Of a stretch of DNA of 34,011 bases, positions 12,249 to 34,011 are shown piece by piece. The position numbers were made by a program, and so were the translations under genes. This stretch comes from a bacterium (GTDB lineage Bacteria > Actinomycetota > Aquicultoria > Aquicultorales > Aquicultoraceae): NCBI GenBank assembly GCA_902810715.1, contig CADDYS010000014.1:1-34011 (forward strand), in the 5' to 3' direction. The notes beneath the pieces are model-generated. The model was not told where the DNA came from and searched no databases. It saw nothing but the letters and a program-made list of their open reading frames with translations. Position 1 is the first letter of the stretch. The number at the start of each line of letters is the position of its first letter.

Positions 12249-12320
12249 GTAGCTGCTCCATTTATGGAGCTTCTTTGGCCTGATAAATCAGGCAACTACA
12301 CCCGATGAATCAGCAACTAC
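12249..12320. repeat. REP/BIME-like cluster of three GTAG-headed hairpins
   Basis: The block starts with GTAG (12249-12252). Hairpin GCTCCAT-TT-ATGGAGC (12255-12270) follows, then a spacer and hairpin GCCTGAT-AA-ATCAGGC, and it closes with CTAC (12296-12299), the reverse complement of GTAG. A degenerate third unit ends in a further CTAC at 12317-12320. GTAG at the foot of an imperfect palindrome is the hallmark of bacterial REP sequences mobilised by RAYT transposases. Positions 12254-12301 recur perfectly, inverted, at 19275-19322. It lies between the minus-strand hypothetical gene and rpmF. Confidence 0.75.
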
Positions 12321-15795: not shown

Positions 15796-15840
15796 ATGCC
15801 TGAATGTTATTAACAGTTAATAACATTCAGGCATTATTTA
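15796..15840 (+). terminator. Intrinsic terminator with an 18-bp perfect stem
   Basis: Positions 15796-15813 pair perfectly with 15817-15834 around the loop CAG. The T-rich tail is only TTATTTA, so termination may be partial. The hairpin begins one base after the DRTGG gene stop. It is symmetric and could work in both directions. Confidence 0.75.
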
Positions 15841-15868: not shown

Positions 15869-15894
15869 GTAGCAGGGCTAAAGCCCTGCGCTAC
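15869..15894. repeat. REP-like hairpin with GTAG/CTAC ends
   Basis: GTAG (15869-15872) and CTAC (15891-15894) flank the perfect stem GCAGGGCT-AA-AGCCCTGC (15872-15889). The ends match those of the units at 12249-12320, but the stem sequence differs, so it is a second REP-like class. Confidence 0.6.
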
Positions 15895-16010
15895 TGCAGC
15901 ACCTTTGATAAACCCACAGCTAGCCGCTATTGCCTTGAAACATATAAATCCTGTAATGTTTATAGCTAGTAATTGCTTGCAGGCTAAAGCCTGGAATGCA
16001 GACCTCCACT

Positions 16011-16105
16011 AGTACAGCGTCATGGATAAATTGATGCTTTATTTTACAAAATACCTATCGGTGGTAAAAATGCTTTTCAATCAAAAGAAGACCTGACGCT
16101 GTACT
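16011..16105. mobile_element. MITE-like element with 12-bp terminal inverted repeats
   Basis: AGTACAGCGTCA (16011-16022) and TGACGCTGTACT (16094-16105) are perfect inverted repeats bounding 95 bases without coding capacity. Outside them, CTCCA on the left and GGAG on the right extend the symmetry if a three-base CTA is skipped. This layout suggests a miniature or internally deleted DNA transposon. No clear target duplication is visible. Confidence 0.5.
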
Positions 16106-19274: not shown

Positions 19275-19322
19275 GTGTAGTTGCCTGATTTATCAGGCCA
19301 AAGAAGCTCCATAAATGGAGCA
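19275..19322. repeat. REP/BIME-like double hairpin, perfect inverted copy of 12254-12301
   Basis: All 48 bases match the reverse complement of 12254-12301. The unit begins with GTAG (19277-19280), then has hairpins GCCTGAT-TT-ATCAGGC and GCTCCAT-AA-ATGGAGC. Compared with the other copy, the far GTAG partner has been lost. It sits inside the operon between fabK and fabD, so the mRNA would carry two stable stem-loops upstream of the fabD start. Confidence 0.8.
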
Positions 19323-19346
19323 ATAACAATATATTATCGAGGAATT

Positions 19347-33866: not shown

Positions 33867-33892
33867 AAAAGACCACCCTCGGGTGGTCTTTT
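33867..33892. terminator. Bidirectional intrinsic terminator beside the IS insertion
   Basis: AAAAGACCACCC (33867-33878) pairs perfectly with GGGTGGTCTTTT (33881-33892) around the loop TC, with T tails on both strands. On the minus strand it would end transcription from beyond the window before the RRM gene. The IS end begins inside the + strand T-tract. Confidence 0.8.
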
Positions 33893-34011
33893 AATGTCCA
33901 TTTCGGGGATTGGGAGAAAATCCCTCGCCTTTAGGCGAAGACTTTAGTATGCTTGCGGCATGGAGCACTATAGAAGATCAAGCCATACCGTATATGACAT
34001 AAAGTATCACC
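33889..34011 (+). mobile_element. IS200/IS605-family element, left end (partial, runs off the window)
   Basis: This is the perfect reverse complement of 5-127. Hairpin arms are GGGATT (33906-33911) with AATCCC (33919-33924), and TCGCCT-TT-AGGCGA (33925-33938). The tnpA start follows at 33960. The shared sequence starts with TTTTAAT, which probably includes the target bases recognised by the transposase. The window stops inside the element. Confidence 0.85.
33960..34011 (+). CDS. tnpA: IS200/IS605 TnpA (Y1 transposase), N-terminal fragment
   Basis: ATG 33960 opens a frame reading MEHYRRSSHTVYDIKYH before the window ends. It is identical to the fragment at 1-56 on the opposite strand. It is a partial gene because the sequence stops, so there is no evidence that it is broken in the genome. 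Confidence 0.8.
   Translation, partial: MEHYRRSSHTVYDIKYH

Follow-up and report, generated by a model that had tools for sequence, protein, structure and literature searches.

What are the palindromic repeats that recur in this DNA, and by what means did they come to be there? The window, as we call the whole stretch of 34,011 nucleotides analysed here, is contig C14 of a draft genome of 2,426,698 bases (2.43-Mb), a MAG in 153 contigs. REP/RAYT systems have mostly been studied in gamma-proteobacteria. An earlier note on this DNA, made from the letters of the window, described REP/BIME-like units with GTAG heads at three places, some of them paired and one recurring as a perfect 48-bp inverted copy. 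It supposed that they had spread recently, mobilised by a RAYT transposase related to an IS200 TnpA that it placed at the window ends. It called for a genome-wide count of the unit and for a search for a RAYT gene flanked by the same repeats; the proposal was to be given up if there were only these copies, no RAYT gene, and conservation at orthologous sites across species.

Several described systems offer a frame for this question, and the comparisons made below refer to passages of the papers cited. In the main text of Di Nocera 2013 (PMC3733652), 24 GTAG families are described from Proteobacteria, Cyanobacteria, Chloroflexi and PVC, together with REPtrons and dimers. RAYTs flanked by two inverted REPs have been reported (Nunvar 2010, PMC2817692), and the inverted REP doublet, or REPIN, has been presented as the probable mobile unit (Bertels and Rainey 2011, PMC3116915). 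TnpA_REP proteins have been divided into subclasses, with REPs inserted in genes of subclass 2.4 and a patchy distribution taken as horizontal transfer (Quentin 2018, PMC6006769).

Two classes of GTAG repeats in the window and its genome

The 72 bp at 12249-12320 are not a single unit: they hold three units of what we call class A, two intact hairpins with their heads outside and a degenerate one. The class-A unit consists of GTAGTTGC, three variable bases, ATTYAT, three variable bases and GC. The repeat units of the window are the following, with the basis of each in brackets.

12249-12270, + strand: class-A REP unit GTAGCTGCTCCATTTATGGAGC (sequence; genome-wide family)
12278-12299, - strand: class-A REP unit GTAGTTGCCTGATTTATCAGGC, exact consensus (sequence; genome-wide family)
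about 12300-12320, - strand: third, degenerate class-A unit (sequence reading; similar third units in matches spanning query positions 1-72)
15869-15894, listed without strand, read on the - strand: class-B REP unit GTAGCGCAGGGCTTTAGCCCTGC(TAC), GTAG/CTAC at both feet (22 copies against 0 in the control)
19277-19298, + strand: class-A REP unit, exact consensus, between fabK and fabD (sequence; exact 48-bp inverted copy)
19306-19327, - strand: partner unit, hairpin intact, GTAG head lost (CAATAAC) (sequence reading)

The intact class-A units of the window carry GTAG at the foot of the palindrome, in keeping with the GT[AG]G of GTAG-type REPs, with two nucleotides (TT or CT) between GTAG and the paired stem of a perfect hairpin; the head of the 12249-12270 unit, GTAGCTGC, departs from the GTAGTTGC consensus at one position. 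The first two units form a head-outside doublet, BIME- or REPIN-like, around a spacer of 7 nt (TTCTTTG). The perfect inverted copy that the earlier note had pointed out is indeed there: the reverse complement of 12254-12301 equals 19275-19322 at 48/48 bases, and in a repeat search of the window the inverted arms extend to 61 nt at 92%. Folded as DNA, pieces of the + strand give z values of -3.1 to -4.3.

The 72-bp query finds 39 matches in its own genome, 17 of which cover the two hairpins with at least 79% identity, in line with the pairing that had been likened to BIMEs. From the consensus of aligned copies the unit pattern GTAGTTGCNNNATTYATNNNGC was derived, and its reversed form served as control. 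With at most one mismatch, the count that the earlier note had called for gives 147 class-A matches against 0 for the reversed pattern, and with at most three mismatches 241 against 48; by eye, about 97 of the latter matches listed are mismatch-free. The GTAG foot, the hairpin, this count and the doublets bear out the identification as GTAG-headed REP/BIME repeats.

The palindrome is kept by complementary changes in the stem. Among 65 distinct places of this genome, chosen with the fixed positions exact and without a pairing filter, standard pairing is found for 92.3% of the three variable stem pairs; over 1000 shuffles the mean is 67.2% and the highest value 76.4%. All three pairs are formed in 51 places (shuffle mean 20.6). 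Placement was followed in a 400-kb sample of the genome, of which crude ORFs of at least 80 aa cover 85.8%. Out of 40 units (at most 2 mismatches, at least 6/7 pairs), 35 lie outside these ORFs and 5 inside; the gaps that hold them are co-directional (25), convergent (6) or divergent (4), and neighbouring units up to 100 bp apart are arranged head-outside (8) or in tandem (10), never head-inside (0). Class A thus has the features of GTAG-type REPs, i.e., high copy number, a mainly extragenic location and occurrence as single units or inverted doublets.

The unit at 15869-15894 shares GTAG with the other two places, as the earlier note stated, but its stem and loop differ from those of class A, and it belongs to another GTAG REP class, an older one, rather than being one more copy of the same unit. 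The class-B pattern has 22 genomic matches versus 0 for its control (at most 3 mismatches). Since a decayed ortholog of this unit is found in the same-genus genome G001, class B at this place is older than the split from G001. When the five Y1 loci of this genome were scanned for GTAG hairpins, no RAYT could be tied to class B; in G010, of the same family, a RAYT (L324) is flanked by a REP related to class B.

Other elements were noticed in the window. A perfect 19-bp inverted repeat with a 1-nt gap (15796-15834), at the end of the gene preceding plsX, is possibly a terminator. Upstream of plsX, at about 15917-16012, a noncoding block of roughly 85 nt with ATCCTGTAAT and TAGTAATTGCTTGCAGG is kept in this genome and in G001, G002, G004, G005 and G007; it has no Rfam match and may be a conserved promoter or leader serving the fatty-acid operon. 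At 16011-16105 lies a MITE-like element of 95 bp with perfect 12-bp terminal inverted repeats (AGTACAGCGTCA / TGACGCTGTACT), absent in G001. The window ends (1-127 and 33889-34011) carry an inverted repeat of 123-127 bp found at 11 genomic places, mostly contig ends, which is an assembly-breaking repeat. An IS200/IS605 element at these ends had to be dismissed: Y1_Tnp (PF01797) has 5 matches in the genome and none on C14, so the IS200 TnpA claimed there was not found.

Occupied and empty sites among relatives and other phyla

The region from rpmF to fabD is syntenic with two genomes of the same genus, G001 (FabD 86% identical) and G002 (FabD 72%), and two class-A sites of the window, 12249 and the fabK-fabD gap, were compared. 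At the syntenic fabK-fabD loci of G001, G002, G003, G004, G005 and G007 there is no class-A REP; the gap holds other sequence in G001 and G007 and is nearly absent in G004. The filling in G001 and G007 (L391, L393) consists of other dispersed-looking repeats (GTCATCCCGAG..., GTCATTCTGA...). The 12249 unit sits in a 795-bp segment of which G001 keeps about 8 bp, and in G002 the equivalent region is present without the REP. Conversely, G001 has a class-A unit of its own before plsX (G001:C6:13441), where the window has none. The window class-A insertions are therefore supported as lineage-specific by two sites empty in the same genus. As to the recent spread proposed earlier, these empty sites speak for it; the 48-bp identity, taken by itself, is weak evidence.

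Copy number is patchy. Among 148 related genomes including this one, scanned with at most one mismatch, 12 (again including this one) have class-A matches. The window's genome has 147 and two others of its genus 24 and 1; for two further genera of the family the counts are 143 and 21, a genome of the same class has 48, and the remaining relatives have 0-1. As to the affinity of the host itself, a first assignment to Dehalococcoidia was dropped, since comparing its proteins with the named loci gave no clear sign of such a relationship.

Class A is not confined to this lineage. When named genomes were scanned for the degenerate unit in its exact form, at least 113 stretches came out; among those listed are records titled Nitrospirae, Nitrospinota, WOR-3, Zixibacteria, Elusimicrobia, Proteobacteria, Poribacteria, Dehalococcoidia/Chloroflexi, Firestonebacteria, Brocadiales, Actinomycetota, Clostridia, Planctomycetes, Patescibacteria, Desantisbacteria and Methylomirabilota. 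From 80 of the stretches listed, 42 genomes were picked, one locus each, chosen for having a match. In 36 of them class A reaches at least 10 copies (at most 1 mismatch; highest 311), and the reversed pattern has 3 matches over all 42. Class-A REPs are thus multi-copy in genomes titled as more than 10 phyla, although record titles may be wrong, and all or nearly all of the genomes compared are draft MAGs, in which absences weigh little.

This is where class A departs from the phylum list in the main text of PMC3733652, one class spanning records titled as more than 10 phyla. In its other traits it resembles the GTAG REP superfamily described there and in PMC2817692: a GTAG foot, a short palindrome, complementary stem variants and a TY-type loop. 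Neither GTAGTTGC nor Dehalococcoides appears in the main text of PMC3733652, to which this comparison is limited, and class A may equal one of its 24 families. With the REPINs of PMC3116915 it shares the inverted doublet; unlike them, its spacer is often only 7 nt, and in the 400-kb sample tandem pairs are no rarer than inverted ones.

A RAYT flanked by class-A units

Matches to Y1_Tnp (PF01797) are found in 34 of the 42 class-A-bearing genomes, from which 80 Y1 loci with small frames were taken for a flank test, long-frame loci being set aside. One kind of protein of about 137 aa, RAYT-A, occurs at 9/80 of them, in some cases shortened. Class-A units lie within 150 bp of RAYT-A at 9/9 loci; at the other Y1 loci a class-A unit is found within 400 bp at 2/71. 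Of the ten RAYT-A loci that are not relics, eight have class-A units on both sides, in hosts titled Dehalococcoidia, Clostridia, Zixibacteria, Planctomycetes and Nitrospirae and in a relative of the same class; the other two are L357, which ends at a contig end, and L354 (titled Proteobacteria), with one class-A unit and one degenerate unit. At 19 loci of other RAYTs no class-A unit was found with at most one mismatch, and many of these carry a GTAG hairpin class of their own. In other genomes, therefore, class A forms REPtrons, i.e., a Y1/HUH RAYT between two REPs of the same class. In one of them (L288) the TAG stop codon of RAYT-A is supplied by the GTAG of the 3′ REP, and in L240, L258 and L268 a class-A unit overlaps the gene end. 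High copy number, head-outside dimers, flanking by the cognate REP and this overlap are all known from the REPtrons described in PMC2817692 and PMC3733652. A class-A-like unit also lies within the RAYT-A gene of the Clostridia-titled genome (L240, 1547), which recalls the REP insertions described for subclass 2.4. In G017, of the same class as the window, RAYT-A is disrupted at the N-terminus and has class-A units close on both sides.

An alignment of seven RAYT-A sequences (A1), 53-64% identical to the first, was used for a renewed profile search; for comparison, FabD identity between the genera of the window's family is 59-65%. In a tree of 34 rows, 11 RAYT-A rows form one clade (support 98/96); one of them is a relic from the window's genome, with no more than 48% of the columns occupied. 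Inside the clade, the copy titled Clostridia groups within those titled Dehalococcoidia (98/87), a position that would imply either horizontal transfer or mis-binning. Among solved chains the best match is E. coli TnpA_REP 4er8 (E 6.6e-13), and among NCBIfam models NF047646, REP-associated tyrosine transposase (REP_Tyr_transpos), against which the two RAYT-A proteins compared reach 68.4 and 73.0 bits, below the curated cut-off of 80. The alignment contains WQ and Y..NNP, its first HUH residue varies, and most copies have no insertion. RAYT-A resembles subclass 2.4 / RAYT group 4, as presented in PMC6006769, in its WQ and YIxNNP motifs, and the two systems share canonical and "double foot" REPs, REP insertions in related gene copies and a patchy distribution, there taken as horizontal transfer. 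It differs in being shorter (about 137 vs 194 aa), in mostly lacking the variable insertion between HUH and Y, and in its HUH motif ([SDNT]H[ILV]H vs NH[IFV]H).

Of the 42 genomes that bear class A, only 9 could be assigned a member of the RAYT-A clade. Profile matches at E 0.01 or better occur in 33/42, most of them to other RAYTs, and in most of the genomes with multi-copy class A, all or nearly all of them draft MAGs, no clade member was detected. Some of the richest belong here: G168 (311 copies), G171 (145) and G172 (126). This scarcity fits loss of the transposase or draft gaps, and leaves room for other enzymes.

In the window's genome the A1 profile search retrieves one copy:

G000:C13:31919-32122, - strand: RAYT-A relic (A1 profile search, 109.5 bits)

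It spans profile positions 69-136 of 137, the C-terminal half, and is followed on its 3′ side by a degenerate class-A unit (one mismatch). As the upstream sequence is unrelated to RAYT-A, the copy lacks H66 and H68 of the HUH motif; the stretch where the N-terminal half should be resembles the dispersed-looking repeats of G001 and G007. In this draft assembly we found no cognate RAYT with intact HUH and Tyr, only the relic. As RAYT-A survives here as a C-terminal relic devoid of the HUH motif, the approximately 150 class-A REPs are probably orphans by now, unless an intact RAYT-A is missing from the assembly. The search for a RAYT flanked by the same repeats hence succeeded in other genomes, while at home the supposed mobiliser is broken.

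Origin and fate of the class-A repeats

It is very probable that the repeats of the window are, as a whole, mobile class-A REPs of the GTAG type, spread in trans by RAYT-A and now probably orphaned, with class B as a second class. The observations on which this reading is based are the repeat family itself, the covariation of its stems, the mostly intergenic placement, the empty sites and the specific flanking of RAYT-A elsewhere. The class-A copies at 12249-12320 and 19275-19322 would be non-autonomous single-strand mobile repeats, many of them paired head-outside, and the cognate Y1/HUH RAYT-A of about 137 aa most likely spread them in trans. By analogy with the literature on E. coli TnpA_REP, this enzyme would bind the GTAG foot plus the hairpin on single-stranded DNA, and may then cut beside the foot and join the strand elsewhere.

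The mobiliser could instead be one of the five other Y1 proteins encoded in the window's genome, three of about 325 aa, RAYT-like with a DnaA-like tail, one of 201 aa and one of 157 aa. Their frames are open and they match NF047646, one of them above its cut-off; however, in 8-kb stretches no class-A unit lies within 100 bp of any of them, the nearest being at about 2 kb, and elsewhere class-A flanking is specific to RAYT-A. We consider this origin unlikely, and the long genes (~325 aa) were rejected as cognates on account of the missing flanks. Covarying stems and a location in intergenic, mostly co-directional gaps are also what one could expect of RNA regulatory or terminator elements kept by vertical descent. 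Such elements are hard to reconcile with two tested sites that are empty in the same genus, with counts as uneven as 147, 24 and 1 among three members of a single genus, with units in both orientations and in doublets, and with window copies after which, on reading the sequence, no T-run follows; this explanation appears very improbable, though RNA roles of the hairpins after insertion are possible. That the repeats are chance hairpins or an assembly artefact, as a MAG of 153 contigs might lead one to suspect, has practically no probability left: the 147 matches against 0 already refute the artefact, the copies lie inside long contigs, and 36 of the 42 other genomes have at least 10. Nor do the findings that were to overturn the earlier proposal appear, as there are many copies, neither of the two tested class-A sites is conserved, and there is a cognate RAYT, albeit broken here.

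Class A and RAYT-A appear to be new as a REP class and its transposase, although their kind is already known. What stands out is the unusually wide spread of class A across phyla and its orphaned population in the window's genome. In the literature searched (PMC12306157 among it), including for the string GTAGTTGCC, we found neither a class-A REP joined to its RAYT clade over such a range of uncultured phyla nor a paper on a RAYT in Actinobacteria.

Chances seem evenly balanced that a single REP/RAYT pair, with the GTAGTTGC head, the ATTYAT loop and one RAYT clade, moved horizontally among many phyla of uncultured bacteria of sediment and groundwater, time and again leaving tens to hundreds of REPs in a genome before the transposase was lost, which would make orphans the usual end state. 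The intact, decayed and lost stages of the RAYT, all of which are visible, constitute a natural series on how RAYTs choose their REPs, and one that also bears on whether a REP and its RAYT travel together and on the persistence of REPs after the death of their transposase.
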